This document shows, piece after piece, positions 15,866 to 51,659 of a stretch of DNA of 64,000 nt (its first letter is position 1; every line of letters begins with the position of its first letter). The stretch lies in NCBI GenBank assembly GCA_963669155.1, contig OZ022590.1:312501-376500 (forward strand). The letters run 5' to 3'. The position numbers and the translations under genes are program-made. Below the pieces are notes generated by a model, which was given only the letters and a program-made list of their open reading frames with translations, was not told the origin of the DNA and did not search any database. This stretch comes from Arbacia lixula. Taxonomy: Eukaryota; Echinodermata; Echinoidea; Arbacioida; Arbaciidae.

Positions 15866-15947
15866 TCATTCAGCCTTACACGCACTCTTGTTTGCCCACT
15901 TAATGACCTTACACCACATCCGCGTTGGCACGTGGAAGTACGGTGTG
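15866..15947 (-). CDS. timeless: timeless terminal coding exon 24
   Basis: Residues about 956-982 (TPYFHVPTRMWCKVIKWANK...) then TGA at 15866-15868. Acceptor CTGTTACAG. A second frame is also open through this exon and beyond (LNEELYEPEWKASL...), ending near 15755, but the phase of exon 23 selects the frame given here. Another tail would need a different donor in exon 23. Confidence 0.72.
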
Positions 15948-18900
15948 CTGTAACAGCGAGAGAGAGGTAGAGAAATGGAGAAAGGAGTATTAATCTCTAT
16001 GTCAAGGGTTCCTCATGGGAAGATACATGTATGGTAGGTCCATGGGAGTATGGTATTCTTATAAAATGAGGATAGGGAGAGGAAGGGAAACAAAGAAAGG
16101 TGTCTTAATCTCTATTTCAAGTGTTTCTCAAGGGAAGGTACATGTATGGTAAGGTCGTTGTTTGCCTAAATGTCATGGTGCACCATGTGTATTCCTGAAA
16201 AGGACTGCTGAGTATATTATTGTGTAATAGAAGACACACACTTTCATTTTCATAAAACAACAAAACAAGACATACACAAGTTTATTTCCACATTGTCTTG
16301 GGCGAAATACTCAACTATTTGTAAGGTCAACTTAAAGTTATAACTCTCCTGTGTCAATTAGTACGAGAGATGAAGCAATGCAGGAGTAGCTTCCAAGGAG
16401 GTGAGACTAACCTGTGGAGCTCCGTGGGCTCCGTGCCTAGCTCCAGGTCCTCCAGATCCAGCATGACGCCCTCCTGGGTCACGGCCGACGGCTCCTTGAA
16501 CTCCACAGGCAGCTTCTGGATGCTGTCACGCTCAAACTTCAGAGCTCCTGTATTAATCAAACGCATGGGGCAAAACAAGCATGAGGTCACAGCTGGATAT
16601 ACAAAATACTACGGAAAGTGCCAAATGGATGACACAGATATGTTAGCATGGATATACAAGTGAAGGAAAAGTAAAAAGCTGTTCACACACAAAAAAACTT
16701 GGATATGAGCAAAATGTAACATATAGTGCCTGACTTCAAGTTTGTGCTTGAAAACTAGCCACTGGCATAGGAGGGGAAATCACTAAACGATCCTTTACCT
16801 ACAAGTCTGCTGTTTACACAAAACACTCAAACACTAAGAGTAAAATGTAATGCACAGATCCTGACTTCAGGTTTCTGCTTGAGAACTGGCCATGGAAGGC
16901 AAGGAGATAGTGGAAGCAGGGGGTCCAGAAAGCGACTGTGAGCCTCGCATCAATTTACTGCACCACCCATTAACTGAGTATCAGTTTTACTATTCGTATT
17001 GCTTTTGCTTTCTTTGAGCCACCCTGAGTGGGAGAAATAGGAGGAGGAAGGGAAGGGTGAATGACGAACGATCCTTTACCGTCTGGTACGGGGCCCAGGG
17101 TGAGAGCGGCTGTGTAGCACATGTCACTGGTCCAGAAGGCAGGGACAGAGGGGTTAAGGCGACCAGTGTCGTGGGACGTGTGCAGACCCAGCTTGAAGAG
17201 CAACGCCTTGAAGTGGGTGTCGTTATGCGCCAGCTCCGCCCGCTCTGTGAATGGGATGATGGGCACAGACTTGCCTTCCGCTGTGAGGAGAGAGAAGAAA
17301 GGATGGATTGGCCGTTTCCCTCGAACAATGTTGCTCATTGAATCCAATGAATTTCACCCTACACCATGTGATAGTTCCTAAAGGACCTGTAAAATATTCT
17401 TTCAGCATAGCTGTGAAAAGTACTGCTCAGAGAGCAACTGAGGGAACACAATAAGGTCAGTTTTATTAGGAGATAATCAACTACTTCTAAGCGTCTCTTC
17501 AAGTAAAACCCGAAAGAATCCCGCTATCCAAATATAAATGAAAGGAAAATCTTTTCAACAAAGCCTAGCTACAACAACATCTTTATACAAACCAGTTTCC
17601 AGGCAAAGTTTCAAGGCCAGTTAGGACAATATTTGAAAAATTAACAAGTTTTTTTTTATTAGTTGTCAAAGTTCCCCAATGTTTTGGGATTGTCAGCTTT
17701 TTACATGTTAACTCTTCAATAGGGTTTCATTCCCATTTCATTCCTGTATATGCCAAAGTATGCACCGAGAATACAAACAAGAGTGCTTTCTCACAAGGTC
17801 CAGAACAATAACAATGATTATATTCCACATACTAAGAATGTTGCTATATGATTGGTCAAGAGTTGATCACGTGATGAGGCGTAGTTTTTCCTATCAGATC
17901 ACCTGGGAATAAAAGTTCGTTACACTCTAGGTGATAGTACTTTTTGGTTTCGCTGATCTCTTCACTCCTCACAGTCCTAATGCGTGATTAATATTTTTAG
18001 TACGCGCGAAATAAAAGTGCGTTACACTCGGACTATCACTTGACATCTAACGCGTCCTAACGCGCGTCCTAACGCGCGTCCTAACGCGCGTCCTAACGCG
18101 TGTTCCCCATGGCAGCAGCTTGGGGTTATGGAGATAAGTAAACATTACCTTTTTACGTCAAATTGTCATTTTTGGTATAAATAGTTGGTTTCAGATGTGG
18201 AATATAAAGCAAATAATCAACTTTTGGTTTCAAGCAATGGGATGAGCTATCACTTCCTCGGCGATCTGAATGTATACGCTATCTTTCCTCAGCTGCGCTT
18301 CGGAAAGATAGCTACATCCAGATCGCCTCGGAAGTGATAGTTCGTCCCATCGCCCTCACCAACGCTGATTATTTGCTTACTATTAGACGATTATTATACT
18401 AATATATTGAATGATGACCTTCACGATATTGATTGGTATTGCTGTAGTTGTACTCATGTGTAACACCATTGTGCAAAATCATTGTAGAAACTGTGAAGTC
18501 ACATGCAATTCGGCTGCGAAGTGTTTCTATTTCATACTGTTTGTTTTATATCCTAATTAACCATTATCTATCTGTCTATCTAAGACATATAGTATCACAT
18601 TTCATCTGACACAGGAAGAGTTAAAGGGATGCGTTGCTTACCACAGCAGTGCCAAATGTATGGCTCTCCAACATGAACTTTGGGGCAATCTGGAGAGAAA
18701 ACACACAGCACAAGCGATCACTGTTCATGTATCACAGTCACACATTACTACAGTAATCCCACAGAAATGCACATTTTTTATTTTAGCATACAGAGGGGGT
18801 AAAGCAATACTGCCCTACTCTGACAAAAGGAAGCAACTAAAAAAGAGACTTTTCTTGTAAATGAGCAAAAAGTGTCTGTCACTTGCATTGGCATCAATGT

Positions 18901-21900
18901 AACACCACTTAAGTTCTAGCAGCAAGATGAAAATTTCTTGTCCAGATTTTTCCTGTATGTAGGGAATGCTAAGAATACGAATAACCCACATTTCAGTGAT
19001 TTGTCACTTGCTTCCTTTTGTCAGAGTAGGGCAGAATAATGATAAACCATGCTTAGCACAAGCTGTAGAGAAAGACTCAAAAGGGGGGAAAGAAAGGCTG
19101 GCTTTATGAGAAGGTGATCTTTCTCTACAGGTGTCTTTCATGCAAGTTACATAATATATGAAATGTTAATGATACAATTCAAGATATAATTTTGAGACAT
19201 GTCCTTTAAATCAAATATAGCAGCAGCAAAAACAAGAATGGCTCTGCCAATCTTTACACTTATGATAAATTTGTATTTTTGAAACTCACTTAATTTGAAG
19301 TAGCAGATTTCTAGGAGCACTTCCTGGAGTTCGGCAACCTCATCCTCAAATCCTGCAAATGTGATTAAAAATAAAGTTGGATGAGGTCAAACAAATAATA
19401 GTATAAATGCAAGGTGTGGCATCAATCTGGCATTCCATCTCAGGATCACTGAGATTGGGGTAACATGGATAGTAATGGCTTCTTTATAACAAGTATATAC
19501 ACTGTACTCAATTCTTTGAATAATCACCCGTCACATCAGAAACTCATGAATGCAAACAAGCAAGGTAAATGAGGCCTTGTGTAATGGTTGCTAAGTATTA
19601 GGAACTTGTTACTACAGCCATCACAGCTAATATCTTATCACCACATGTCCCTTTAATATAAAGCACTTGCAGACTGTTCACCTTTGTTCCTGAGTGCGTC
19701 TAAGCAGTCTTCTACAGACTGCGTCCTAATCGGGATGAAGGGCGCTGCCACCCTCTGCTCCTCTGGCCCGTCATCCTCGTCATCGCTGGAGTCCCGTGGG
19801 ACATACAGGCCGTTTGCTTCACCCGTGATGTTCAGTGTCTTCTCCTGTGGACAAGGGGGATGAGACAGACACAGATTCATCCATTGTAGCTCGTGTGATT
19901 AAGTCTGGCATCGTATGTTATATCAATATATCCTGATAGATCGATTAAACCCATCCAATATTTCTTGATAGATTGGTTAGTCCTGTCTGCTCATTAGGAT
20001 TTGTGTGTATATTTTGATCGATTTTGAAGAATGGGATAGAAGTCTGACAGTCTCACTGACTACTTTTTGTTCAATTCTTTTGCCAATCAAAATTCCCTAA
20101 CTTTCTCTTCCTAACTTTCCCTTGTTTTAAGGCATTTTTATCAAATTCCCTGATTTTCCCTGCCTGGAAAAAGTAAAATATTTTTCCCTGATTTCCCTGA
20201 TGGGCTGGGAAGCCTTCTTTGATATTTGTGAGTATTACCTTATACAAAGGTAAATCACTGACACACACACAGCGATAACATACCAGTGGCTTATCAGAGC
20301 TGTCTTGCCCAACTGCTAATTTCTTCGTTCCTTCATTCTCAGTGGCTGACTCGATGCTACGTTTTCTGCAATTCCAGAAAGAATCAATAATCGCTACTGA
20401 GTTACACAGCAGTTACAAAGCAACAAATATACATGTATTAAAGCAATGACACCAAATAAACTATTTATCTAAACAACTACCAAGGTTATGCATGTTAGAA
20501 AACAATAGGACATCTCGAGCACATGTCCAACCTGTACGATGAAACCCCCATTTATTACTGTAAAATTTGTCATTTTTAAGCTTTTCGCACAACACAGCAA
20601 GAGCGAATTTTAAATCCAACCTGCTTTTGTTTTGATGGCTAGACGTGCAAGACTATCAGGGATTCTGGAGTTACCAGTACTGGCAAGCAACTCCTGCACA
20701 TGTTGCACATGTTGCACATGTTGCACGCTGTGACGCATTGCCCAGCTTTCAGCTTTATGGTGGCGTTAAAAATGTAATGCTTCAGTCTGGGCTTTGTTGA
20801 TGATTTTGATGCGTCGGATAGATTTTTTTTGAAGTGCAAAATATTTCAAGTGCACAAAAATAACATCCCGCCAAGATGATGTAGGTGTGCTGTGCCTGAC
20901 ATATTGACTGGTGCGACCAGTTTTAAAAACGTGACAAAGCTGTGACAGTACATACCTTTTGGCTGGCTGGATGACATCCATGCTGCCCACCGTTTGCAAA
21001 CACTTCTCCTTGTTAGTGCTGCCCAGCACGCAGAACTCGCACACGATGTAGTCAATCAGACTGTGCGATTGCTGTAGGGGGAAAGGGACATCGATTTTAA
21101 GAAAATTCAGTCAAAACAAGCTGTGTCCCTACACACATTCAGTCAAAACAAGCTCTGTCCCTACACACATTTTCATTTTTCAGAACAATCAAGTCAACAA
21201 TACAAAGGTGTGAACGATATGTAAGAAAGAGTCATGCAATAAGTTTGCGAGGTGCCGGCAAAGCCCTTTTTAGTCAGAATTGTTCCTTTTCTTCCTATCT
21301 AGGGTAAGAAAGAATGATCTATCACATTTGCACTGTGCACTTCCCTCACGCCAGCTAAGGTTTCCAAATCTTTCCATTTACGTCACAGTCGTATATTTCC
21401 AAAAAGTATAATTGTTATGGACCACATCAAGTGTATAAATATTTGAGTGTTGAAAATTTGTTAGTTTTGTCAAATTAATACTTATTCATGTTTGAAGTAA
21501 ATATAGATTACATTTCAATAGGTTATATTTCTCCATTCTCCCAAGATAATTTCCACTTGAATCACAAAAATTGTAATGAAGTGATAACTTGCTCTTTTTG
21601 AAAATCTATATGTATGATATAATAAAGGGTTTTACATAGAGACAGTTCAAATAGAGAAAATGGCCTCTTCTCATCTGATCTTGAGAGGGAGCTGGTTACC
21701 TTGGTGATGTGTCGGTTGCCTGCCTCCCAGAGGCAAGCAAACGTGTTGAGGATGGGGATCTGATAGAGCACCTCCGGCCGCGCCAGGTCCACAGCGATGT
21801 GATGCATCATCGTCATGACAACTTCATTCTCCTCCAAGGTGTTGAGGGAGAACTTAGAGAGCATGTAGTTGTAGACACGCATGATGGGTCTCGATGCAAA

Positions 21901-24900
21901 TCTATGTATCATGAAACAAACATGACATGAAATGATTGGACTTAGACATTTAGGAGATACATCCGGCTGGTTTTTGAGAATCAATTTAAATAAAGTGTGC
22001 TTGATTTCACACGCACTATTGGTAGGTTATAAAGTGTAATTGATAGCTCTTTCTTACCTGAGGTAGGAAAGGGAAGGGAACTATCAAGAGAAGAAAGTCA
22101 ACCAATGCAAGAACTGCAGAGTTTCATGACTTTGGCAAATGGGCTACCCTGTTGTTAGAACTGACAGGAGTGTGTGGATAGAGTATCTTGCTGAAGAACT
22201 CAAGTGCCATTGGTGGGCTCGAACCTGAGACCTCAAGATCTTCAGTCACAGCTCACAACCACTATATGAGGGACTGCCCTCATGGTACTCACTTCCTAAT
22301 GTGTGTGGCCATGTCCAGCTTGCCCCACTCTGGCCGATGGATGTGCTCCACCTGGTTGATGATGCGCAGCACCAGGTCGTTGCCCATGACGATCTCCCGT
22401 AGGAAGGCCAGCGTCTGCTGCTGCGGCTGGAACTTGCGGATCAGCAGGTGGTAGAAGTTGCGTACCGTCTTGGTCAGCACGATGGTGGCTGTTAAATGAG
22501 AGCAACAAAAGTTTAACAGGTGGTAGAAGTTGTGCAAGTTTCCCATTCATGCCATCTTTATTTAGTGAAATATAAATAATTGGCAAAATATGCATCTAAT
22601 TTGCATAAATCATAATGTACACAAAATTTAATATTTTTTTCCTAAAAATATATGCAAAATTGATTTAATGCACCGTGGCCAAAATATAAGAGGGTGGGGT
22701 CCAATATGGCCCTGCTTCCAGTCAAAACCTGCTCTCAAAAAGCCCCGTCAGAATAGAGTTTTAATCAGATGAGGCATTCAGGGGGTGGGGTCATAATAAC
22801 CCCCCACCCCCTTCCTGGAATAGGAAGACAAGAACAAACTTTGGCCTGGTTTTGCCCCCCCCCCCCCCCCCCCCTAAGAAAAAGAGACGCCCCTTCTCAC
22901 CAAGCATGGTCTTCATGTGAATGACATCAGTGCTCCGTGGGTCCGTAGTGAACTGCTGCACTGCATGGAGCATCTGCCGCAGAGCTGACACCTGCATATT
23001 CAGGCTGGTGGAGAATAATCATGATCACAACCATTATTACTCCTTTCTTACTGAAAGAGACAAATGTTCCAAAGATCAGTGCTACAAAATCTTCAAACAA
23101 CTACAGCAGTATTCCCAAATTACATAGCAACAATCATTTACACTGTTTGTCTAATACGTAATTTATTGAAGAGTCTTGACTCAAAATAATTTCTAAGCAT
23201 CACATAGAATGGCATCCACATCACTACACTACACTGTCTTGTGTTTGCATCAATAATTCCAAAATTACTTAAATTGAGAAAAGGTGGTAAGTGAAATAAA
23301 TGCATTTTCTATCGAGACACATCATGTTAAGTGACAGCTACTTGACATTTCTAAATTAATAAAATAAAATGATTTTAATTGAATGGCCCAGCTTCCTAAT
23401 ACACCTTCTACTACAATATTTTCAAGACACATTTGAACTTGGGATTTGGATCACCAAAGACAGATGTTTGCTCTAACTGTAAGAGTCATGAAAAAGCACT
23501 CAAGAATGAAACAGATGAGGAGAAGAGACAGATGTCTTCCTGCAGATAGCAACATCCGGGAGGTGTTTCTTTACAGTGACTCTTGTGCTGTGCTAGGTCT
23601 TCTGAATATGTTATCAACAGAGTACAATGATTTAAATTGTCCCACAACCTGAATGCAAGGCTATGAGTCAATAGAGATACAGTGAAATGCATCATTCAAT
23701 ATCGTCTTCCTTTTCTTTCTTTTTTTGCAAAATGACAATGGCTAAATTAGTCAATTTTCACAGACTGCCACATGTAAAAATGCAATATGTTTGCAAGTTG
23801 CTGGGAGGGACTCACATCTTGAAGACAGAGTTTGACTTGCTGTCGTTGTTACGCTGCTTGCTGGCCTGGATGAACTCCTCCCACGTCTTCAAGGCTGAGG
23901 CTACCACCTGGCTGAAGACTGGCGCTGACAGCAGCAGCCTGCCGCAAAAAGGAATATCACAATCACCATTTACATTTAATTAAAACAACAAACTCTAGCC
24001 ATACACCCAGTAGCAAGGATAGTGTTCTCTATCCTATGACAGAAGCAAGATTTATTTTTCGAGTGCCATTACTTCTTGCAATAAAATCTAATGGAATCTA
24101 TTCACGTTTACATATCTAAAATTACTAGCTATATAATCTTGCACTGTAAATCATAGATTAGTAAGGAAAAATCCCTAGGGAGTGGAGATGGTGCACATAC
24201 TTGTGTGTGATACGTTCCTAAATCAAGGCCATGTCTTATAAATTGCAACTGATTATGACTTGACATGCAGTTGATATCAATCATAAATCTTCACAAGACA
24301 GGGCACAGAACCACGACTGTCTGCAAATTCCGATGAAGACAGACCCCGATACCATCACAAGGGACAAAGAGTCTGTCCTTGTACTCACTTGATGTTGGTA
24401 TAGACGACGGTGGGAAGGGCACTAAACGGCAAGAAGAAAGTCATCTGCCACAAGAAGTAGTGGTTGGACATCATGTTCTTCAAGTCATCCTGCGCAGATG
24501 GAAAAGGTAAAAACAATGTGATGATCTGTTCTTTAAATGGTACTCTTCAATAATAGATTTGCTAGAAAAACTAGGAGAGAATGGGAAAACCAGGACCCTG
24601 TTGCATAAATCTTTCCATTAATGGTAACTCTGCCATCAATGGTAACTATCATGGTAACATCACTCATCAGCCAATAAAATTCAAGGTTGGCATTGAAATT
24701 TCTATTGGTGGCAGAGTTACCATTAATGGTAAGTTTTATGCAACGGGGCCCAGGTAGGGATTTAAACCATGCATCTAGTACCTGCCGGGCAGCGCCATTC
24801 CTAGGCTATCACTTCTCGCAATGTCACGATACATTAGAAATCTATTAACTTGCTTATTGAGTTCCAAAAAGACAAGTGTTTATTCAGTAAAATAAATACA

Positions 24901-27900
24901 GAAAGTACCACTCAAAATAAATGAAGATTCTAAGATTTATTCCAGCAACATGAATATTTTGGAGGAGTTCATTACAACACATCACAACCTCATCGCTTGA
25001 ATTTCTGAAAACATTCCTGAATCTAGTGCTGTGATTCTTCTGCTGTCATTTAACCAAAAAAGACATCAGGGTGTCTTTTTCCTTGTTAACTCTTTGCCCG
25101 CTTCGTTCAACTCGCGGCACATACAGCGGGCTGCCAAGTTCGACTCAAGTCACATTTCGCTTACTCTTTTTGAATGACCCATTTAAATCCTAAATTGCTT
25201 GGCTCATTATTCCCATAAAGACATGGGTTTGGTATGTAATGAAAGCTTAAGAACACATCTTTTCTATGAACTAACTTAGAGAATAACTTTTATTAGGAAA
25301 TATTGAATATAAGAGGTATAAAATACCCTCCAAAACGATAATTTGGAGACAGAATGTATAAAGTTAAAATTCTCAGAATCTATGATATTATACATGACAA
25401 AATTTATACAATTGGCTAGAGTATTAATTTCTCTTAGACTTTGCTACACATTTTTTTTTCATCACGACAAACCAATAAAAAGTTATTGCGAGTTGAATAA
25501 GACAATGCATGCAAAACCCCTCTGAATGTGGCACCCTGAAATGAATGTGGCACCCTGAAATTAATGTGGCGCAGGGGAGATTGTGTGCGTGGCGGGCAAA
25601 GAGTTAAGAGAAACGAATAGATAATCCTTGAAGAGGCTATATGCATCAGAACATGTTGTACTATGTTAATTGGCACACATGGGACACATTTGTTATTCCT
25701 AGGCTCTTGCAATAACAGAGGGACATATATTATGCAATATATCCCTTCTGTGAATATTCATGGGTATTCTAGGACATGATTGATGCTCACAGAATACAAA
25801 ACAATTTTACTAGAAACTAAAATCTGTGCCTCGGCACCAATTATCTTTTCCTAGGGGGCACTGCGCATGCTCTATTTACTAATTTACTATTTACTAATTT
25901 CTTCCTTGGCACTACTACGCATGCTCTCTACCTGGTAACAAAATTTTTTATGACTGCGACGATGCGCAGCGCACTGTGCACTTTTATTTACAGTCCGCCC
26001 AGTTCCGACCATAGAGCTTTATATAATGACCGAGATTGTAAACAAACATGGCGACCTTTCGTGTTCCTTTTTTGTTATTGTTTTGCAAGAGGGATATTAT
26101 ACAAATATACCAAGCTGTGAGATTGTATAGTGGAAATTATCTATCTGAGGAGGGAGTGGCATAGAACTATTTTTTCCTCGGGGGCTTCGCCCCTCGGAAA
26201 AAATAGTAACTTATGCCAGTACCTCCGAAGTTGGATAATTTTCACTATACTTTCGAACTCAATGCTTGGTATATTTGTTTTATATCCCTTTTGTAAAACA
26301 ATAACAGAACAAAAATAGCCGCCTTTTATTTTCTCTGTCTCATATCGGTTCATCTCCGGTAAATGCGCAACACGCCGCGCACCTCATCCACTGCGCACTA
26401 ATTTACGCCCGCTCAGGTAGAGAGCATGCGCAGTAGTCCCAAGGAAGAAAATAGTAAATAGAGCATGCGCAGTGATCCCCAGGAAAAAATAGTGAAAACT
26501 ATCCGGAGCTCTTCGAGCATCAATTGACCAATCACGTTCCTAGAATACTCATGAATATTCATAGAAGGGATATAAAAAACAATATACCAAGCAGGGCTGC
26601 CAACCTTTGAAGGTCAAAATTCATATTCTGCACCTCCAAAATTTGTTTTTTGCCTTTAAAATTCGTATTTTTAATGATGAAGGTAGCAAGTCTAAGCCTG
26701 TGACTAAACAAATATCATCCGTTTAGAATTTTAAATCTACTCAATGGCCAACTGCCACTGACAGCTGATCGGCAGCTAGCAGTGTAGCACTACTGCTAGT
26801 ACAGTGCAGCACAGTGCACCCCTACACTGTGAGCCGAAGTCTAGCTTTCCTTCCCCAGAGTTCTGGGGAAAAACTTAGCTAGTGCTAGGGGTTCCAAAAT
26901 TGTAACAACCGATTTTTTTTTCTTTTCCCAAATGATATGGAAATGTTCTTAAATGTCCATCTTTGGAGGGACTGGCATAAGTTAATATTTTTTTCCTCGG
27001 GGGGCTTCGCCCCTCAGAAAATATCATTCTATGCCAGTCCCTCCTGAGATAGATAATTTCTACCACACAATCTTACGGCTTGGTGTATTTGTATAATATT
27101 GACATATGATTAACTTCATCGCAATCTTACCTTGCACTGCATGATGATTTTGTCCAAGCCATTTGTGATATATTCCTCAGCAAAAAAGGCCAGCTTTTTC
27201 CTGCATGAAAAAAAAAATGGATGACAATTATTAGGTAGCCTGTAACAATTGACAAATCACCTCTCAATTTTCTTAGAATATCTTTTTGACTATCATCATC
27301 ATTATTTTTTTTATTCTTCCACCCAAAATTTTGTGAGTAATATTTACTTTAACTCATACATGCATTGATCATTTTCTTACATTTTGTATCAGATATCAGT
27401 TTGTAATAATATCTTATTAAAAACAATTTGTTTCAAGGTTATCAACTACACCTACCACTCATAGCACCTGCCTACCACTTACTCTACCACACTCACAACT
27501 CCCACTACACACACACACACAATGCCCATCACTTCAACCACATATCATATCACTCTACCACACATAAATGCTATCACACCTATTACTGTTTTCACTACAC
27601 CTACCACCTAATATAAGCATACCACATATCAGCCACCCTATTAACAAAGCATTTCCCTGCCTTCCTTGTACAAATCATGTTCTTTCCATTAGGATGACAA
27701 ACATGCATTGTGCATGCGTTTTCTTCTGTTTTACAAACGTTCTTGATTTGCCAGATGAAAGCTCAGGCAAATTTACAGTTATGAAATATACAAGGAAAAT
27801 TTGGAGCAACTATGACCTGATCATAGTGATCTAAATTCAAGCAAAAATCAAACAAATCAGCTACTCGCTTTACAGATGATTTAAATACATCATATTGAAC

Positions 27901-30900
27901 ATACAAGCATTCCATGTGTGCAGCAATACACCCAGGTATACAACAACATTCACTTAGAGTTCATGTATTTCAGGTCAGAGATGAATTAGGTTTTAGAAGG
28001 CTGCATATCCATACTAATATCCAGTGCACAACAAATATGTTACGTAACTCTTCACGCTGTGTGAATACATACAATGCACATCAAGAACGAAGTCTTCTAA
28101 GCCCGCTACAAAGGAGGTAGGTGTCCTACCTGAGTAGTTTCTCCTTGTACATTGAATGTCTTCCCTTGTTACATAACAAACTGACACACACTATACAAAT
28201 CAGGCTGGTTAGAAAACAGATCCGAACCCATCTCCGTATATAGGCCAAAGGTGCTTACACAATCTACGACTATTTATACACTTAATATTTTAACGATGTG
28301 GAGATGGCCACACAGTGTCACACAGTGCATACTTTGTGCAGACGGCGCAGACAGGCAAACATTGCTAAACTGCCATTCCTCAACACATTGCTGGCATAGA
28401 TGCAATATTTCTATTCTGCTGGTACCCTTATCTGAACATTAATATAGCCAAGGCATCACTGCTTGCGCTCAAACTGCTTATAACATTTGGAGCTGTTATT
28501 CTGGTCAGTACTCCACTGCCTCAAAAATGTTTAGAAATCTAATGCTGGAAGTGGCAGCTGTTTTGGACTCCCTGTTGTGTACAAAATGCTGTAAAAAAAT
28601 AAGCCTGACTTGGATCGGTAGGTGAACCATGGCCCGACCTAATCCCATGTTCCATGAAAGGATACAATACATAAGAAATCTAATGTCTAACAAAAGTCAC
28701 ATGAAGAGATCGGATTTTGTTACGTTCTTAATATGTATTCTTACCAGTCTTTACTCTTTTTTCCCCATTTTATATTTGTGAGCTAGGAAAAGGCACTCAT
28801 GATTCAAATCTTATTTTTACCAGTCAAACTTTACTACATATCATGGGGAGTATTGTGCGACATCTAAGGTCACCGCAAGCCCCTCTATCCTTGTGTACTT
28901 AAATAGAATAAATAGGAATGGGTGATCTTACATGTTTGTCTTCTTGACATTCTTGACGTTGTCTTTCTCTGTTTCTCCCTCTGATGAGCCGGACCATATT
29001 GAGGACCCAGAGCCTGTGCTCTGTCCCATACTTCCCTGCACAGGGAAAACAAAAATCACACAAGAGTTAGAAGAAACATTGGTTATGATTTACAATGATT
29101 GGATGAGTCTTCAACTCTAAGCATATAAGCAATGATGCTTCTGTCTTTAAATCTTCTCCTCCAATCAGTTAATCTCAGAATGGGTGAGAGAAACGATTCA
29201 CAGTTCTCTTTTTACTATAGAATATTTCCATTTGTTGGCCGTATAATGACACTTCCCAAATAATCCCGCAAAATGTCTGGAAAATGGTGACAAAAAAGAT
29301 GGAACGTGTCCATGATATAAGATACATCCGTCACTAACTTCTTGTCCCAAAAACAAATATTAGCCCCCCAAAAAATGTCTAATACCACCACCCCCCCCCC
29401 TCCCCCACCCCCATCAAGTGTTTGGAGCCACTAAAATGACAATTGAGTTTAGATATCCCCTCTCGCCCCTGAGAGCTCCAGAACCCTGAACATCAAATAC
29501 TGCCACCCTTCAAGTTTTTTGAGCAAGCAACATCAGAATTTAGTTTGGCCCTGACCTCCTGCATGGTGCTGCTGTCACTGCTCTCATTGGTTGGAGACCC
29601 GCTCCTTGATGAGTTGGGACTGATGGTCTCGCTCCCTGATACCTCCTCGCCTCCCTGACTGGACCCGCACTGCGACTGCACCGGGGAGGCCATGGACCCA
29701 GAGGTGGAGGGGGAGGACGGTAGATCTGGGGTGATGTTAGGCTCCTGGTCGGGGTGAGAGGGGAATACATGGGGAATACACCATATTCGTTATGTATGCA
29801 AATCTCATTCACATTGTTTAATACATTATGAATGGTTAGCACAAAGCTTGTCTAAGGTTTGTCCTAGTAACAACAACTAATGGATTCAGAGGGTGAAGGG
29901 TGAAGAAGGTATGAGCACACTCATTAAAAGTCAACACTTTGGTGCTACACAAAAAAGAATTAATGCATATTGATGGTCCAAAAATTGTTTTAAGGGCCAT
30001 GTAAAGTGAAGAATCCAGCAACCTTTACCTCATTCGCCAGAGAGGGGCTATTATCCTGCTGTGTTAATCTGTCATCCTCTCCCCTCTCATTGGCCGTCGG
30101 GAGGCTGTCGCCAAGGCTACTATTACTGCCAGCGGTCAAAGGTGATGAGGGTAGTGTGGGCTCACAGTCCATCTCCATGGGTTTGACCTGGGCCTCTTCC
30201 GAGGCCTCGTCCGCGGCCACCTCCGAGGCCTGACACTCCTCCGGGGCCTGAGAGGCTTCCTCCTGGGACTTCTTCCTATGCTTCTGCTTCAGATACTCCA
30301 CCATCTTCACAGGGTTCTGTGGTAAAGGTCAAACATCAATGTCAGACATCATTTTAATATCATATACCGTATCAACCTGTAGATAAGACGCACCCGCAGA
30401 TAACACGCACCATGACTTTGAGCATGCAATTTAAAAAAGAAAAAAAAAGAAAAAATTGGGTCTTTCAAACGAACACGTATAAACACGTATGGGACTATGC
30501 ATTGTGTGACAACATTCAACAAAATAGATGGCTTTGATAGCCTGACACAATTCATGTACCTGTAAAACAATCTCAATCACATCATGAGCATAATTACCAG
30601 TACCAAGAAGGCACCAGGACTAGTATTTGTCTGAGACACCTCAAAGATACTGCGAAGGACAAAGCTAAGGCTCAAGCTCCAAAACTCTGTTAGAGGGGGG
30701 CCCGCCTTGTTTCTTTGATCTCCGGCCATACGGTTTCATGTATAGCGCCATCTCGCGACCCGATCAAAGACCGTATATAGCCGGAGATGAAAGGAACATG
30801 GCGGCCCCCATCTAACAGAGTTTCGGAATTTGAGCATTACCTTTCTCCTTAGCGGTATCTTTGAGGGGTCTCTGACAAATACTAGTCCTTGTGCTTTCTT

Positions 30901-33900
30901 AGTACTGGTAATTATGCTCATGATGTGATTGAGATCATATTACCGCTACATCAATTGTGTCGGGCTATCAAAGCCATCTATTTTATTGTTGAATGTTGTC
31001 ACACAATGCATAGTCCCGTACATGTTTATACGTGTTGGTTTTAAAGATCCGACTTTTGCTAATGCCGCGGATAAGACGCACCCGGACTTTGGTGTGATTT
31101 TCAAGGGAAAAAACATGCATCTTATACGCCAGAAAATATGGTAATATCAATATACATCATATCACATTTTCTTCTGCTTCTGCTTCAGATAGTTCACCAC
31201 CTTCACAGGGTTCTGTGTTCAAAGGTCAAAGATCAAAAATAAGTTTGATATCATAATGTAACTATACATCATAATTCACTTTCCAATGCTTCTTTCTTCA
31301 GATATTTCACCATCTTGACAGGGTTCCTCAGTCAAACATCAAGAGTAAAGATTAAACATACGTTCAATATCACATATACATATAAATAATATCACTATGC
31401 ATTCAAATGAGATGCTATGTATGAACGAAACATCTCTATGAAGTCATTGATATAGATTGTAAATACTTCTTTCAATGAAGAGACACACGTATTTGCAGAA
31501 AGATACTTACAGTGCCCTTGTACATAAGGTGTAGCACTTGCAAAAAGGATGACAACCATTTGCCCTGGAAGCACGAAAAAGGAAAAACAAAATCAATAAT
31601 ATAGTTCACTCTTATGCACATACATGCAAAACCAAGGTTCTTTACTTTATAGAGCACATGCAAGGTTAGAAAAGAAATTGCTTACCATGCCCAGATAATT
31701 CTTTTTTGTTTGTTTTTTTTTTGTTTTAATTTCATTGACATTTGACCTTGGTCCAATTTGAGCCTAATGTTATCATGGTTTCATGAATAACATACAGGTA
31801 TTCTGCCCTACTCTGACAAAAGGAAGCAACTAACAAAAAGAGACTTTTCTTGTAAATGAGCAAAATGCATTGGCAGCAGTGCAACACCACAGCATGTTAG
31901 ATTGAATATCTTGCAGCGCGATGAATATTTCTTGTCCAGATTTTGGCCGGATATAGGGAATACTGGGTACAATCTAAGAATACCAATAACCCAGATTTGA
32001 GTGATTTGTCACTTCCTTCCTTTTGTCAGCATAGGGCAGTATTAAGCTTGAAGGAAATTTATCTGTTGAGCAGGTCTATTGCATAAGTGGATTCAGGACA
32101 GACGGACAGACAGACAACCTCAAAATATAATCTTTTATCTGCATTAGAATATCCAGCAGTCATGTACTGAATGCATGTATGTTGTTTAACTCTATAAACA
32201 ATTATACCGGTTCAAGTGCATGCTTCTAAATATTGATGTGCATGTCCTAGCAAATAAATATGAATTGGGGAAAGATTTTGACAGAAAGACCAGACAATAA
32301 AATGCACAACATACCTGTTCGCTTCTCTTGCACATTTCTTTCAGTACATCGTCGAACCCACACGTGAAGAGATTCCTACGAGATATGAAAATAAACACAT
32401 GTTACTTCACGGCCCTTGCCTCACAAAGATATGGGAATAGTCCCATTGAGAGACTCACAGAAGTGATAAACTGATCTATATATTATTTATCAAAATATAT
32501 TTTTTTACCTACAAAAGGGCTACCCTGTCTTTGATAAATTGAATATTAAAAATAGAGTGGCTGTTTTGCAGGTCAATTCTTATTTCATCAAATTTCTATT
32601 ATATTGTTGAATTTTATCGTTTATGATGTACTACATCACAACAAAATTGTGCTAGTTGACCAATCTGCCCATATGTGGGCAAGGTAGTATGTGGCAGGAC
32701 CTGATTTTCAGGTTTGGGGCTGATGACTGTTAATCATGCTCACGAGATAATTGTGTCGTTCCTCAGCCTGCCCGTGTGGCTGCTTTTGCAGCTGACGTAA
32801 AGTATGTTCCTGAGGAGCGTCAAGCAATTGCTGAGGGTCTCGGCCGTGGAGTGGTCAATAGGATAACTGCCCGCCTGCATGGAGGGAAGGGAGAGAAGGG
32901 TAGGGAGAAGGATTCAAATGAATGATACATGAATTGTTGAAGACTATTTATATTTCCAGGGTATTTGATTGCACGGTGTGAGGACGGCTTCATCACCAGT
33001 TTTCCACTTTACTCTTACTTTGAGCTGTTCCTATCCCTGTAACACTCCTCGATGTCATTGATCGATCTCCTGCATTTCCTGCCTCATGTCTAGTGTACAC
33101 CATACAGAAGAGGCAGACAATGCAACACAACGATTGAAGAGGCTAATTGTTTTGTTTTGTTTTAAATAAACGTAATACTTACAGTGACTGACAAATCTAT
33201 TTGGTAATTATTGCAATGTAAAAATAGTCTTGCAATTTTTCATAAATTATGATTTTCCAGCTTTGTCATAAAGGCAAACATAATTCTTTTACGCATGTGC
33301 GCTGAATAACTTGGCTGGCAGGTACATTACCTACTAACAAATCGCTAGCATTTCGTTGGCAGTCAGACATCACACTTTTTTTAGCAAAGGGCCCTGTTGC
33401 TTAGAACTTACCATTGATGGTAACTTTGCTACCAATGGCAATTTCCATGGTAAACTTGAATTTAAATGGCTGTCAAGTGGTGATACCATGGTAGTTACCA
33501 TTAATGACGGAGTTTCCAGAATTGGTTTATTTTATGCAATGGCCAAATAATGAGATAAATTGATTGATTGATTGATTGACTGACTGAACTTATTCTGATT
33601 AATTGAACATTATTTATTTCCATCAACACAATTAAATAGCATATTTACATACATAGTCACATATGATTAAAAAAAAACATGAAAATACATTTATAAGATA
33701 AACTTAAAAAACAAGTTATGTTGGACATGTATCGACAATTTGAATATAAATAGCTACACAGACGATAAATAACAATTATTTTCAAAAGCACTTTTTTTTT
33801 TTAGTGTTTAATGAGCTGACCTCCTCTATGATAAGAGCCATCTGATCCACCAGAGCAGAGATGACCCTGAGTTCAGTGAACTCCTTCTTAATAGACTCCA

Positions 33901-36577
33901 GCATCTTCTGCAGCTCCTGCCGCTTCTGGTAGTCCTCCTGGGTCAGCTTCTTGACGATAGGCATGATAACCTCTAATGGCATGGACAGGTGCATCAACAG
34001 CCTGAGGGGTGTAGGGATTCCATAAGGGCATGGTAAATAAGCCATTTTCGTAATGTACATGTACATGTATTCGTAACTTTCCCCTTAGCTACCTGGTGAT
34101 GTGTTATTACATCAACCTCTATTTCTTGATTCAATTTGAATGGATAGAACGTACTCTAAATCTATTAGTTGTTGCTTCTCGGAGGAACCTCGGACAAGCT
34201 TTGGGGTTACCATTAGTAACCTATTGTTTGAACGAGATGAATAAAATTTGCATACATAACAAAAATGATCTATTGAACCCTCTCAGTATTAAATAGCCCC
34301 CTGTCAATTATCACACAGTTTATTGCCTGTGGGACTATGGTTAAAAGTCTACAGGTGCATGTGGTATAGCAGCTAGTACATGTACTTGAGGGATTTGCCT
34401 ATTGTTCTCCGGAGCCTAAAAGGGGTACTGGTGTTACATAAGAGTACAGGCAAGTTTATTGTTATTGTCAACAATAAAGAAACAAGACAATGTTCAGCGC
34501 ATCATCTCTGGATAAGTTGAACAAAAATGCATTTACCTCCAGTACCGGACTAATAACAAAGTAAAGTTGGTACAATTTCAGGATTAGCAATTCAATGGTG
34601 TATCTATTTATAATGTAATCCTGCATGGGAGATACAGCTTATCATCAAGACAAGCAAATGTATGGATGCCTTAACAATCTTAAGTCCATATTTTTCAAGT
34701 AGCTGTTACATTATATAAACTTGGGGAAGTGAAATGGGTTAAAATGGGAAAATACTGGTTTATAATGGCTACACTCTCAATATATACTACAACAATGCAT
34801 GCAAACAATATTTGAGAGATTCATTTACTGGATATACAATATATCTACACAACAGCTCAAAGGAATTGGCATAGGGAAAGGGAAAGGGAAGAGGGGGAAG
34901 GAGCCGTGGTATATTTTGTCTAGTTCAGCATGAAACACGATGCTTTATCCTAAAAAGCATCATGTTCCATGCTTAACTGGACAAAATATACTGCAGTTTA
35001 AGACTGCTGCTCCTTCCTTGTCTTCCCTTTCCCTATGCTAATTCCTTTGAGCTGTAGCGTACATGTACATGTATACATATAAGCTGTTATTGTGTAATAT
35101 TGAGGACATACCTGTAAATCACAATGGATCCCTAGAGTGCACCATTTCAAACAATGGGTGCTCAATTTGGATGAGGTAGTTGAATGATGTCTTACCTGAC
35201 AATGGCATCAAAGACCTCTGGCTCATCACCTGAATGACACAAAATGGGAATCAAATCCTGGATAGGGAAAGGAAGAAGAGATACTATTATTACACAAGGA
35301 TTATTATTATCACTACACAAAACTATGTAGTAATTTCTGTTACATGGACGGACATACTGTATCTGTAGGGTTCTCAACTTGTTTACCAGCCCCCAATCAC
35401 TACATTAGTACAATTCTGTTTGATTTGTGTATTATTGGCAATATAATACTGCAATATATTTTTTCCAAAACATTAACCTTAATTTTTAAGATTACAAATG
35501 CACAGGTTTTCTATATATCTGCTTTGGTTAATCAATGTAGACATTGATTTAGCTTTTCACATGAGTATCGTTAAATTGGTTGGAAAGTGTCTTTTTCTGT
35601 AGTTTACATTTATTGCAATTTCAATATAAAAGATACAAAATTAATATTAATCTAAGTAGAAATTAAGAGAAGTTTATATCATAGAGCCATAGGCTTTCTT
35701 GCAGGAGGGGGAGGTCATCGATTGCACCAAAATATAGGCTTAGCGGTACACCTTGTACTATGTGGTACACCCATCATCTGCCCATGCGTCCTCCTTTATG
35801 AGTACAGTTAACGGGGTCAGAGACAACCACTCACCATAGGGATTAATCTACTGTTGGCGACATTTCTCCTGGCTTGGTGCTTCACCTTGCTCTCTTGCAA
35901 GATGTTATTCAGCATTTGTTCCAACACATCTGCAAAGGAAGGAAAATACATCATTACTACATGGACATAACCAAACTAAAAATGAAGATATGAAAGCGTC
36001 ACAAAATGCTCATTGGTACAAAATAGATACATTTTATACATGTATTTTTTTCCATTCTCCGTGGCAAAATCTATATTGATCATATCCGCAGGAATGTACA
36101 TGGTACTTCTTTCAGTTCCTTGCACCTTGTAGAAATAATCCCATTAGCAGCTCACTTTAACAAGGTTAAATTTTGCTCTAAAACATAAAACAATTGAATG
36201 ATTGGTCAATAAAGAGGAATATAAATCCCTGATAACTTAATTGATTAAATTGTTTTTGTTTTTTCAATTCAAAGAAACAAGATAGGCAGAGCTTTTGGAA
36301 AATCAGACATAAAAATTTTAAATATTTACAAAAAATCAAATTGTTCACCGACATCCTGGCACCAAAGACAAATTACTAATTTTCAAAATGCATAAGATTT
36401 ATCTTGTCAAGATAAATAAAGTTACTCAAACGCATCTACGCAACATACGTACATAAATGAAGTTCAAATAAAAGTCTTACCTTGACATTCTTCTGTGATG
36501 ATGTATCTTGAGTCTTCTTGGTATCCCAAGTTGCTTGCTGAGGCCGACTGGCCACCACCCATGATTAACCACTCCAT
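15866..36577 (-). CDS. timeless: timeless (Drosophila-type TIM), complete 24-exon coding sequence
   Basis: TIMELESS-family armadillo/HEAT-like protein of 982 residues, assembled from 24 minus-strand exons with GT-AG borders and continuous phase (2949 nt). In Drosophila, TIM binds PERIOD, moves into the nucleus and helps repress CLOCK/CYCLE; that role here is inferred. Family signatures in order: MEWL start, 'DLIPIL' and 'FDAIVRLLMHL' (about 65-90), 'NCLTLLRNIL' (about 161-170), 'LQVLHLMYKGT' (217-227), a Ser-rich insert (about 228-420), 'KKLAFFAEEYI' (about 422-432), 'HHIAVDLARPEVLYQIPIL' (about 652-670), a basic cluster PAKRKR (722-727), an acidic run DSSDDEDDG (770-778) and 'VPIIPF...LLFKLGL' (about 848-875). 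It is shorter than fly TIM (about 1400) and human TIMELESS (about 1200). I see no equivalent of the SANT-like, PARP-binding part of TIMEOUT. CDS exons: 36481-36577, 35835-35929, 35196-35257, 33821-34001, 32744-32874, 32315-32375, 31511-31564, 30029-30316, 29556-29744, 28932-29035, 27131-27200, 24389-24489, 23816-23938, 22901-23004, 22293-22488, 21700-21901, 20956-21071, 20284-20365, 19682-19844, 19290-19352, 18642-18689, 17080-17280, 16412-16547, 15866-15947. Confidence 0.93.
15962..16158. repeat. ~110-bp tandem duplication in the last timeless intron
   Basis: The unit GGAGTATTAATCTCTATGTCAAG...TACATGTATGGTA (15962-16045) is repeated with differences at 16070-16158, just upstream (in gene sense) of the terminal exon acceptor. 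Confidence 0.65.
16412..16547 (-). CDS. timeless: timeless coding exon 23
   Basis: Residues about 911-956 (ALKFERDSIQKLPVEFKEPS... to LGTEPTELH). Acceptor TTAATACAG, donor CACAG followed by GTTAGTC. Less conserved tail region; the call rests on phase agreement and coding composition. Confidence 0.88.
16715..16910. repeat. imperfect tandem repeat in intron 22
   Basis: AAAATGTAACATATAGTGCCTGACTTCAAGTTTGTGCTTGA at 16712 recurs at about 16840. The piece ACGATCCTTTACC at 16787-16799 copies the donor flank of exon 22 (17069-17080). Confidence 0.6.
17080..17280 (-). CDS. timeless: timeless coding exon 22
   Basis: Residues about 844-911 (EGKSVPIIPFTERAEL, HFKALLFKLGLH, FWTSDMCYTAALTLGPV). Matches the C-terminal block 'PLVPLTEE...FQQLLRKLGV' of human TIMELESS. 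Donor G followed by GTAAAGG; a copy of the donor flank lies in the next intron near 16786-16798. Confidence 0.94.
18046..18100. repeat. 12-bp tandem repeat CTAACGCGCGTC
   Basis: About four units in the intron between exons 21 and 22; strongly CpG-rich against an AT-rich background. Confidence 0.85.
18208..18379. mobile_element. foldback MITE, ~80-bp arms
   Basis: AAGCAAATAATCA...GGGATGAGCTATCACTTCC...GCGATCTG is mirrored by CAGATCGCCTCGGAAGTGATAG...GATTATTTGCTT, with a short loop CCTCAGCTGCGCTT. The similar GATAGT/TATCAC motifs at 17930-18040 may be a decayed relative. Confidence 0.7.
18642..18689 (-). CDS. timeless: timeless coding exon 21 (48-nt microexon)
   Basis: Residues about 828-843 (CPKVHVGEPYIWHCC). 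Only 48 nt long, supported by good sites on both sides (TCTCCAG and GTAAGC) and by phase agreement with both neighbours. 'EP..WH' recurs in the family. Confidence 0.88.
18810..19034. mobile_element. 225-bp MITE with ~27-bp inverted ends (copy 1)
   Basis: Starts CTGCCCTACTCTGACAAAAG and ends with the complement CTTTTGTCAGAGTAGGGCAG. Almost the same element occurs at 31803-32039. It lies in a timeless intron, 120 bp from exon 21. Confidence 0.8.
19290..19352 (-). CDS. timeless: timeless coding exon 20
   Basis: Residues about 807-827 (FEDEVAELQEVLLEICYFKL). Small amphipathic helical exon of 63 nt joining exon 21 to give 'LLEICYFKLN'. Acceptor TTTGCAG, donor A followed by GTGAGTTTC. Confidence 0.9.
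19682..19844 (-). CDS. timeless: timeless coding exon 19 (acidic)
   Basis: Residues 753-807, with an acidic run DSSDDEDDG (770-778) followed by PFIPIRTQSVEDCLDAL. The acidic stretch is a general feature of the family. Acceptor GTCCACAG, donor G followed by GTGAAC. Confidence 0.92.
20284..20365 (-). CDS. timeless: timeless coding exon 18
   Basis: Residues about 725-752 (KRSIESATENEGTKKL...SSDKPL). Hydrophilic linker after the basic cluster. Acceptor AATTGCAG, donor CTG followed by GTATGTT. Length 82 nt. Confidence 0.88.
20680..20726. repeat. short tandem repeat TGTTGCACA
   Basis: Three to four 9-bp units in the intron next to timeless exon 17. Confidence 0.8.
20956..21071 (-). CDS. timeless: timeless coding exon 17
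   Basis: Residues 687-725 (QSHSLIDYIVCEFCVLGS... to MDVIQPAK). It ends inside the basic cluster PAKRKR, which is completed by exon 18 and could be a nuclear localisation signal. Acceptor CCCTACAG, donor AG followed by GTATGTAC. Confidence 0.92.
21107..21172. repeat. 32-bp tandem duplication next to exon 17
   Basis: CAGTCAAAACAAGCTGTGTC... is repeated once, with a single base difference, about 35 bp beyond the exon 17 acceptor. Confidence 0.8.
21700..21901 (-). CDS. timeless: timeless coding exon 16
   Basis: Residues about 619-686, containing HHIAVDLARPEVLYQIPIL, equivalent to 'MLHR.A.DLKM.ALLFQLS' in human TIMELESS and one of the most diagnostic blocks. Acceptor GATACATAG (poor polypyrimidine tract), donor AAG followed by GTAACC. 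Confidence 0.94.
22293..22488 (-). CDS. timeless: timeless coding exon 15
   Basis: Residues about 554-619, including TVRNFYHLLIRKFQPQQQT and VEHIHRPEWGKLDM. It matches the 'FRKFDE..QPRSFLRDLVETTH' block of the family. Locally GC-rich compared with its introns. Donor AA followed by GTGAGTACC. Confidence 0.93.
22901..23004 (-). CDS. timeless: timeless coding exon 14
   Basis: Residues about 519-554 (LNMQVSALRQMLHAVQQFTT...). An AG 13 nt further in (TATGCAG) breaks the frame with exon 13, so the CCACCAG acceptor at 23004/23005 is the supported one. Donor G followed by GTGAGAAGG. Confidence 0.9.
23816..23938 (-). CDS. timeless: timeless coding exon 13
   Basis: Residues about 478-519 (LLLSAPVFSQVVASALKTWE... 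to SNSVFK). The Leu-rich helix and 'ALKTWEEF' fit the TIM core. Acceptor GCGGCAG, donor AT followed by GTGAGTC. Confidence 0.9.
24389..24489 (-). CDS. timeless: timeless coding exon 12
   Basis: Residues 445-478 (DDLKNMMSNHYFLWQMTFFL...). It corresponds to the 'YYMWALAFFMAF' helix of human TIMELESS. Acceptor TGCGCAG, donor AA followed by GTGAGTAC. Confidence 0.9.
24593..24755. mobile_element. palindromic MITE with GGGCCC...TTGCATAAA ends
   Basis: Left GGACCCTGTTGCATAAA...CCATTAATGGTAAC, right complement ending ATGCAACGGGGCCC. Located in the intron between exons 11 and 12. Relatives: 33389-33545 and a fragment at 2951. Confidence 0.7.
25086..25607. mobile_element. MITE with TTAA target duplication (copy 2, in a timeless intron)
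   Basis: Same ends as 1911-2567 (TTAACTCTTTGCCCGC ... GCGGGCAAAGAGTTAA). It lies in the intron between timeless exons 11 and 12. An internal 19-bp motif (GAATGTGGCACCCTGAAAT) is duplicated near the right end. Confidence 0.75.
25735..26580. mobile_element. ~850-bp foldback element in a timeless intron
   Basis: The two halves are mirror images around about 26187 (CCTCGGGGGCTTCGCCCCTCGG). Matching pairs include ATATCCCTTCTGTGAATATTCATG / CATGAATATTCATAGAAGGGATAT at the ends and ACTGCGCATGCTCTATTTACTA / TAAATAGAGCATGCGCAGT inside. No coding; the loop is only a few bases. Confidence 0.75.
26960..27068. mobile_element. short relative of the 26-kb foldback element
   Basis: Carries GGAGGGACTGGCATAAGTTAATA and its mirror around CCTCGGGGGGCTTCGCCCCTC, the same core as 26140-26235. 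It ends close to timeless exon 11. Confidence 0.65.
27131..27200 (-). CDS. timeless: timeless coding exon 11
   Basis: Residues about 421-444 (KKLAFFAEEYITNGLDKIIM). It matches the family motif L..F..DFLL..Y..L, which restarts the globular core after the linker. Acceptor TCATGCAG, donor AAG followed by GTAAGAT. Confidence 0.9.
28932..29035 (-). CDS. timeless: timeless coding exon 10
   Basis: Residues 387-421 (GSMGQSTGSGSSIW... to KKTN). It continues the Ser/Gly-rich linker and becomes basic at the end. Acceptor TGTGCAG, donor AT followed by GTAAGATC. Confidence 0.88.
29556..29744 (-). CDS. timeless: timeless coding exon 9 (Ser-rich)
   Basis: Residues 324-386, phase 0-0, 189 nt. It is rich in Ser, Pro and Gly (SPSTSGSMASP, GSETISPNSSRSGSP, ESSDSSTMQE). 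It resembles the serine-rich phosphorylation region of fly TIM in composition and position. Donor GAG followed by GTCAGG. Confidence 0.88.
29762..29900 (-). repeat. member of the TTATGTATGCAAAT repeat family
   Basis: TTCGTTATGTATGCAAATCTCATTC...AGCTTGTCTAAGG...CAACAACTAATGGATTCA. Related copies at 34070-34280, 38940-39150, 55640-55950 and fragments near 44835 and 51090. The orientation here is opposite to most of them. Confidence 0.55.
30029..30316 (-). CDS. timeless: timeless coding exon 8 (Ser/Glu-rich insert)
   Basis: Residues 228-323, phase 0-0, the longest exon (288 nt). It starts NPVKMVEYLKQKHRKK, a basic stretch that could serve in nuclear import, and continues as a low-complexity Glu/Ala/Ser-rich linker. 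The linker probably corresponds to the Ser-rich variable region of fly TIM, but the alignment there is weak. Two partial copies of the first part of this exon lie in the intron upstream of it (31165-31330). Confidence 0.9.
30363..31141. mobile_element. ~780-bp foldback element with 8-bp target duplication
   Basis: Ends carry CCGTAT...TAAGACGCACCC and the mirror GGATAAGACGCACCCGG...CCAGAAAATATGG. Halves mirror around about 30755. The octamer TAATATCA flanks it at 30355-30362 and 31142-31149, as for hAT-type insertion. It lies in the intron between timeless exons 7 and 8. Confidence 0.75.
31165..31335 (-). pseudogene. two relic copies of the exon 8 splice boundary
   Basis: On the minus strand the intron holds two extra copies of the intron end plus the start of exon 8: AACCCTGTGAAGGTGGTGAA...CTGAAGCAGAAGCAG near 31165-31215 and AACCCTGTCAAGATGGTGAAATATCTGAAG near 31275-31318. 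They encode NPVKVVNYLKQKQKK and NPVKMVKYLKK before losing the frame. The first keeps a usable ACACAG acceptor; the second has TGAG instead. Confidence 0.7.
31511..31564 (-). CDS. timeless: timeless coding exon 7
   Basis: Residues 210-227 (GKWLSSFLQVLHLMYKGT), an in-frame 54-nt microexon of phase 0-0. It matches the 'QLIALIYKDQ' segment of fly TIM. Acceptor GCTTCCAG, donor ACT followed by GTAAGTAT. Confidence 0.9.
31725..32180 (+). repeat. dispersed repeat split by a MITE
   Basis: Left part has TTTGACCTTGG...TTTCATGAATAACATACAGGTA. Right part has GGACAGACGGACAGACAGAC...CAGTCATGTACTGAATGCATGTATG. Both match 13930-14110 in order. The 237-bp MITE at 31803-32039 sits between them. Confidence 0.6.
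31803..32039. mobile_element. MITE with ~27-bp inverted ends (copy 2, nested)
   Basis: Same ends and interior as 18810-19034. It interrupts the dispersed repeat whose uninterrupted form is seen near 13930-14110, so it inserted later than that repeat. Confidence 0.78.
32315..32375 (-). CDS. timeless: timeless coding exon 6
   Basis: Residues about 189-209 (NLFTCGFDDVLKEMCKRSEQ), matching the fly segment beginning NLFIQSIDKLL. Acceptor CTCGTAG, donor CAG followed by GTATGTT. Length 61 nt. Confidence 0.9.
32744..32874 (-). CDS. timeless: timeless coding exon 5
   Basis: Residues 146-189, containing NCLTLLRNIL, the best conserved TIM/TIMEOUT helix (NCLLLLRNILHIP in flies). Acceptor CCATGCAG, donor TC followed by GTGAGC. 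Length 131 nt. Confidence 0.93.
33389..33545. mobile_element. MITE of the TTGCATAAA family, second full copy
   Basis: GGGCCCTGTTGCTTAGAACTTACC at the left and TTATTTTATGCAATGGCC at the right; more diverged than 24593-24755. Confidence 0.6.
33560..33592. repeat. (TTGA)n microsatellite
   Basis: TTGATTGATTGATTGATTG followed by ACTGACTGAACT, next to the MITE at 33389-33545. Confidence 0.85.
33821..34001 (-). CDS. timeless: timeless coding exon 4
   Basis: Residues about 85-145, starting LLMHLSMPLEVIMP and ending ALVDQMALIIEE. It corresponds to the helical repeat segment 'VNLT.P' of the family. Acceptor CCCCTCAG, donor GAG followed by GTCAGC, a slightly weak donor. Confidence 0.92.
34070..34282 (+). 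repeat. member of the TTATGTATGCAAAT repeat family
   Basis: CTTTCCCCTTAGCTACCTGGTGATG...AGTTGTTGCTTCTCGGAGG...GGACAAGCTTTGGGGTTACC...TTTGCATACATAAC. Located in the intron between exons 3 and 4. Confidence 0.6.
34852..35056. mobile_element. foldback MITE, ~90-bp arms
   Basis: AGCTCAAAGGAATTGGCATAGGGAAAGGGAA...AAACACGATGCTTT is mirrored by AAAGCATCATGTTCC...CCCTTTCCCTATGC...TTTGAGCTG. Located in the intron between timeless exons 3 and 4. Confidence 0.75.
35196..35257 (-). CDS. timeless: timeless coding exon 3
   Basis: Residues 65-85, including DLIPIL and FDAIVR, a strongly conserved N-terminal TIM block. Acceptor CTATCCAG, donor CAG followed by GTAAGAC. Length 62 nt, exit phase 2. Confidence 0.92.
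35835..35929 (-). CDS. timeless: timeless coding exon 2
   Basis: Residues 33-64 (DVLEQMLNNILQESKVKHQA...). Acceptor CTTTGCAG, donor ATG followed by GTGAGTGG. Length 95 nt; entry phase 1, exit phase 0. Confidence 0.9.
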
Positions 36578-42790: not shown

Positions 42791-42847
42791 TCTATATGGA
42801 TGTATGCCTGTTTGACGGTCTGTTTGTATGCCTGTCCGACTCAACCC

Positions 42848-42848
<1 letters not shown>

Positions 42849-42902
<54 letters not shown>

Positions 42903-42920
42903 TTCTCTCTCTTTCTCTCT

Positions 42921-42965
<45 letters not shown>

Positions 42966-47776: not shown

Positions 47777-47856
<80 letters not shown>

Positions 47857-51646: not shown

Positions 51647-51648
<2 letters not shown>

Positions 51649-51659
51649 CATGCTCTGGG

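Follow-up and report, generated by a model that had tools for sequence, protein, structure and literature searches.

Drosophila TIMELESS (TIM; PDB 8dd7 chain B), TIMEOUT, or vertebrate TIMELESS (7pfo), and the timeless reported from a sea urchin are the closest described relatives of the gene considered here. The window, that is, the whole 64,000-nucleotide stretch of DNA that was analysed (C15:312501-376500 of the assembly), encodes a protein that resembles fly TIM in its M-[DE]-W-L start, N-terminal domain, long Ser-rich insert and TMMHHI motif, and in a PAB domain that is followed by [FY]WT...Y..A..LGP. Unlike fly TIM, it has a short tail after the PAB domain and the SANT-like segment was not found. 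Fly TIM has 1398 residues and is 415 residues longer, in line with the difference of about 400 residues given in a preliminary description of this DNA that was made from the sequence alone. With TIMEOUT, including the gene found on contig C1 of the same genome, the window protein shares the superfamily and the domains PF04821 and PF05029, but its placement as a sister of TIMEOUT was rejected by tree and simulation.

Both genes have been described from a sea urchin. In the available excerpt of Reitzel et al. 2010 (PMC2943474), Rubin et al. (2006) are cited as having found timeless and timeout in the sea urchin (purpuratus), and the duplication is therefore placed before the protostome-deuterostome split. 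Sp-Tim, Sp-Dcry and Sp-Vcry are listed in the accessible part of PMC10486798. The present case is like that report in having a fly-type timeless and a timeout in one sea urchin, a likeness at the level of description. The novelty implied by the preliminary description is thus lost to a finding of 2006, as cited in the excerpt of PMC2943474, and the window gene is an ordinary example of an already described type in an already described group. Here, one sea urchin assembly was seen to hold timeless and timeout together with a cryptochrome that is probably light-type. Their co-occurrence agrees with a timeless/timeout split older than the protostome-deuterostome split and a later loss of timeless in chordates, a conclusion that is already in print in the same excerpt (PMC2943474). 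The role of TIM is of interest because PERIOD is reported as lacking in the related purple sea urchin.

Structure of the timeless gene

The gene was rebuilt on the minus strand as a chain of 24 exons from 36577 to 15866, with both ends identical to those of the preliminary description. The exons joined in phase into a single open frame of 2952 nt without internal stops, corresponding to 983 residues and a stop codon, where 982 residues had been given earlier; the gene and its ends therefore stand. The MEWL start, the serine-rich insert and the VPIIPF block were all present as had been described. The exons, all on the minus strand, were as follows.

Exon 1, 36481..36577, minus strand, MEWL start
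Exon 2, 35835..35929, minus strand, spliced alignment to fly TIM
Exon 3, 35196..35257, minus strand, contains DLIPILCHSG
Exon 4, 33821..34001, minus strand, inside the TIMELESS N-terminal domain PF04821
Exon 5, 32744..32874, minus strand, contains LSNCLTLLRNILYV
Exon 6, 32315..32375, minus strand, aligned to fly TIM
Exon 7, 31511..31564, minus strand, aligned to fly TIM
Exon 8, 30029..30316, minus strand, acidic/serine-rich insert begins
Exon 9, 29556..29744, minus strand, serine-rich insert, without clear homology
Exon 10, 28932..29035, minus strand, serine-rich insert, without clear homology
Exon 11, 28130..28180, minus strand, set by phase and splice sites only
Exon 12, 27131..27200, minus strand
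Exon 13, 24389..24489, minus strand, contains HYFLWQMTFFLPF
Exon 14, 23816..23938, minus strand
Exon 15, 22901..23004, minus strand
Exon 16, 22293..22488, minus strand
Exon 17, 21700..21901, minus strand, contains TMMHHIAVDL
Exon 18, 20956..21071, minus strand
Exon 19, 20284..20365, minus strand, completes a basic KRKR stretch
Exon 20, 19682..19844, minus strand, PAB domain match starts near its end, at residue 818
Exon 21, 19290..19352, minus strand, contains LQEVLLEICYFKL, PAB domain
Exon 22, 17080..17280, minus strand, VPIIPF block, PAB domain PF05029
Exon 23, 16412..16547, minus strand
Exon 24, 15866..15947, minus strand, stop codon, without homology support

The chain was built with GT-AG sites as the only candidates, so the presence of GT-AG in 23 of 23 introns is no independent test of the model. 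The model was also guided in part by fly TIM, and E-values are for that reason somewhat tilted towards fly TIM. A low intron penalty in the spliced alignment produced dozens of false micro-exons; the stable exons were taken from higher penalties, and the remaining ones were set by phase and splice score. Clear homology was absent for exons 9, 10, 11, 19 and 24. The weakest of all was exon 19, the top one of five in-phase candidates, which occupies the place of the SANT-like segment in fly TIM and TIMEOUT. A reading at approximately 28120-28030 that appeared TIM-like by eye was dropped, as exon 12 joined in phase with better sites.

Without any assumption of splicing, the fly TIM core (disordered insert omitted) matched three distinct ORF fragments that lie in the expected order on the minus strand, with E-values of 1.6e-10, 3.6e-6 and 0.003. 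The reversed-sequence control for the core gave no ORF fragment at E up to 0.5. Serine accounted for 20.5% of residues 226-420, the insert, compared to 9.6% of the whole protein. Fly TIM is also known in an N-terminally extended form, L-TIM. In the window, an in-frame TAA is the sixth codon upstream of the MEWL start, which leaves no room for an extension of the L-TIM type within exon 1.

Two partial copies of the exon-8 start and acceptor region were observed on the minus strand in intron 7, at 31169-31236 (88% identity to exon 8 over 68 bases) and 31281-31342 (79%). The first kept its AG and met a stop after 16 codons, and the second had lost the acceptor. Both look like decayed duplicates and not alternative exons.

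Domain content

Pfam searches matched the TIMELESS domain (PF04821) to residues 24-270 with an E-value of 1.2e-23 and the Timeless PAB domain (PF05029) to residues 818-898 with an E-value of 1e-10. Both domains are common to TIMEOUT, and their joint presence is therefore not diagnostic of TIM1. PAB stands for PARP-binding, the very part that the preliminary description had held to be missing; the PF05029 match and the alignment of the human PAB to the same region contradict this. Single-sequence matches to the human PAB were weak (PDB chains, E 0.058 and 0.073), and pairwise comparison of the human PAB with the window protein, with composition correction off, gave an E-value of 5e-6. The human PAB aligned to the VPIIPF block from both fly TIM and the window protein. 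Based on this alignment and on Pfam, the VPIIPF block, which had been taken as a mark of fly TIM, belongs to the PAB domain.

The SANT-like segment was not found with either of two queries. The fly segment gave best E-values of 0.61 in six-frame fragments and 8.6 in the spliced protein, and the segment of the host's own TIMEOUT gave 2.8 and 0.64, respectively. To the extent of these searches, the absence noted in the preliminary description was reproduced. Its use as a marker of TIM was not sustained: the own-TIMEOUT segment aligned best, though weakly, to WSQEEMDTLYWYYVQ of fly TIM (E 0.40, compared to 11 for reversed fly TIM), and because fly TIM has a weakly alignable segment of its own, the absence does not mark TIM against TIMEOUT. 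The missing segment means either that the protein differs from fly TIM here or that the model is incomplete at exons 18-20.

TIMEOUT paralogue elsewhere in the genome

The searched assembly comprised 607 Mb in 590 contigs. Profile searches with PF04821 gave three matches, at C1:27237313-27240886, and spliced alignment to the human blocks extended these to a TIMEOUT gene from approximately C1:27241286 to 27186890. This gene contains the N-terminal arm, the middle blocks and PAB, and carries the WSEEEQAELAGLFEQYRD segment. For its assembly, four exons at the end of the first block B result and four at the start of block D were discarded as spurious, and the end of block B was realigned. Over the blocks, the product shared 52.9% identity with the human protein and 18.8% with the window protein. 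A search for a separate timeout gene, proposed as a check in the preliminary description, was thus positive. Exon by exon, PF04821 missed the window gene, and its silence elsewhere in the genome consequently means little. When the window protein itself was the query, 24 of the 25 genome matches belonged to its own gene and the other had an E-value of 5.3; no second copy was found among these 25. Inside the TIMEOUT span, at C1 ~27229374-27230090, a 239-residue ORF appeared by eye to be Tc1/mariner-type transposase-like.

Relationship to fly TIM and TIMEOUT

The PDB search returned fly TIM as the top match (E 8.8e-54, three stretches), followed by human TIMELESS (4.9e-26) and then a nematode homologue (2.5e-13). 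We take 8dd7 to be the fly TIM chain, 4gu5 and kin to be fly chains, 7pfo, 5mqi, 4xhw and 4xht to be human and 8ouw to be from C. elegans. The alignment covered four conserved blocks from the window protein, fly TIM, human TIMELESS and the own-genome TIMEOUT, and three of these blocks from the nematode homologue. The tree was calculated on 580 aligned columns from these five proteins, one of which is a known fly-type TIM; 5mqi, a second human chain, did not enter it.

Identities of the window protein to the other four ranged from 18.8 to 26.9%, with 26.9% over the blocks for fly TIM. Among the columns in which both TIMEOUTs agreed, the window protein and fly TIM shared a different residue in 42, and the other two pairings accounted for 3 and 12. 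At these 42 columns, the nematode protein agreed with TIMEOUT in 13 and with TIM in four; in the remaining 25 it had another residue or a gap. The common TIMEOUT residue was carried by the window protein where fly differed in 31 columns, and by fly where the window protein differed in 51, as expected of retained old residues. The TMMHHI motif of exon 17 was common to fly TIM, and the three TIMEOUTs have [VM]LHR. In the maximum-likelihood tree, the window protein and fly TIM were split from the three TIMEOUTs with support of 100/100 in both full and trimmed alignments. Six of the 15 topologies were compared, and all five alternatives were rejected (largest AU p 8.4e-5). Grouping inside TIMEOUT, named in the preliminary description as the contrary outcome, was looked for in the five-protein tree and not seen; a position as sister to the human, nematode or own TIMEOUT was not upheld by tree and simulation.

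The gene is therefore read, with a probability of approximately 0.85, as the sea urchin orthologue of Drosophila-type TIMELESS (tim/tim1), an old TIMEOUT paralogue without counterpart in vertebrates. The earlier assignment to fly-type TIM and not TIMEOUT agrees with the PDB ranking, the 42 columns, the 100/100 split and the simulations. Family membership and pairing with fly TIM are established by computation, as is the second, true TIMEOUT in the genome. A fast-evolving, lineage-specific TIMEOUT duplicate could be fly-TIM-like only through shared divergence, and the long branch of the window protein (1.33) and its low identity to each of the other four would suit such a history. However, the nematode branch is about equally long (1.29) and is not drawn to fly TIM, and joining the window protein with the own-genome TIMEOUT costs 69-72 log units. 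In 100 simulations with the window protein as sister to the own TIMEOUT, window plus fly was the favoured pairing in 15, by no more than 3.2 log units, compared to the observed 71.5, so that for these five proteins long-branch attraction of this kind was rejected and such a duplicate is very improbable. Just as improbable is a decaying pseudogene, to which the divergence, the five exons lacking clear homology and the duplicated exon-8 fragments in intron 7 might point; set against it are the 24 in-phase exons with no internal stop, third codon positions of 70.8% GC compared to 33-43% GC in 2-kb stretches of the window, and a genome in which no further copy was found.

Identity of the host

The mitochondrial genome was contained in contig C590 (15,740 bases). 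Its COX1 frame has 14 TGA codons and two AAA codons, in the contexts SS[AAA]IAHAGG and NI[AAA]TTFFDPA, and both of these sites are generally asparagine in other animals. The mitochondrial lysine tRNA has the anticodon CTT. The use of AAA for Asn is the mitochondrial code of echinoderms and flatworms. Bindin, an echinoderm marker, was matched in the genome with an E-value of 2.2e-65. By eye, ORFs were assigned to nad1 and nad2; these lay on the same strand as COX1, which fits the echinoid and not the asteroid mitochondrial gene order. Together, the mitochondrial code, bindin and the nad1/nad2 strand confirm the deuterostome host suspected earlier and identify it as an echinoderm, very probably a sea urchin.

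Cryptochromes, PERIOD and the possible role of TIM

Profile searches with PF03441 gave 13 matches at four cryptochrome/photolyase loci. For the joined exons at C22:8.26 Mb, the best PDB match was the light-receptive cryptochrome 8p4x (E 1.5e-80), which we take to be a Platynereis chain; mammalian CRY1 (8.9e-74) and 6-4 photolyase (1.4e-58) were also matched. Among the four loci, 8p4x was the best match at this one only. Fly CRY matched it at ~5e-51, below the mammalian CRYs (~1e-73) and 6-4 photolyase, and the type I label therefore rests on the Platynereis-type match. The exons of the second locus matched mammalian CRY1 (1.9e-28) and 8p4x (4.9e-11), those of the third a mixture of CRY2, animal-like CRY and 6-4 types, and those of the fourth DASH types. 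As typed by PDB matches, C22:8.26 Mb is a probable type I (light-type) cryptochrome gene. Cryptochrome exon fragments (GYPWIDACMK..., ANHEQMEKVINKL...) were repeated several times around the real exons at C22 ~8.26 Mb, the same kind of duplication as in timeless intron 7.

In the fly mechanism, as given in the available portion of the review PMC11362059, the N-terminal helix of TIM enters the flavin pocket of light-activated CRY. By analogy, the window protein may be a light-sensitive clock partner of the C22 cryptochrome. Its N-terminal helix (MEWL...) would enter the flavin pocket of light-activated CRY as in fly TIM, and light would thereby remove TIM. The chances that it has such a CRY-linked light-input role are put at about even. 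Jointly with PERIOD it might repress CLOCK/BMAL as well, but no PERIOD was recognised in this genome.

The PER PAS-A family had no matches in the genome, and the control genomes were likewise silent. PAS_11 gave six matches, in none of which was PER recognised by eye; some of the frames read looked unlike PAS, and PAS exons may be split. In the excerpted text of PMC9939569, S. purpuratus is reported to lack PERIOD and the sea star Asterias rubens to have it.

The protein could be a TIM that has left the PER-TIM repressor and was kept, without PERIOD, as a CRY-linked light-input factor or as a non-clock factor. The empty PER PAS-A search and the lack of a recognisable PER among the PAS_11 matches would be consistent with this, as would the reported absence from S. 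purpuratus (PMC9939569, same excerpt) and the failure to find the SANT-like segment, but the silent control genomes, the possibly split PAS exons and the un-PAS-like frames weigh on the other side, and this reading is considered rather unlikely. More doubtful again is the proposal that sea urchin TIM has lost the SANT-like segment and pairs with the light-type cryptochrome without PERIOD, forming a light-input branch of the clock that would have outlived a dismantled PER-TIM repressor pair.

Other features of the window

Rfam searches of the whole window at gathering scores gave no matches. Long simple repeats were present at approximately 755-1400, 42700-43050, 47700-48000 and 51370-51660, and such stretches give rise to ORFs made of poly-Glu, Ser/Leu or Arg-Glu repeats that are spurious. 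Ten of the 56 ORFs of at least 85 residues outside the gene were scanned, with a Pfam match in one. A 402-residue ORF at 3316-4524 on the minus strand contains a reverse transcriptase domain (RVT_1, E 2.8e-23) and is probably a retroelement fragment.
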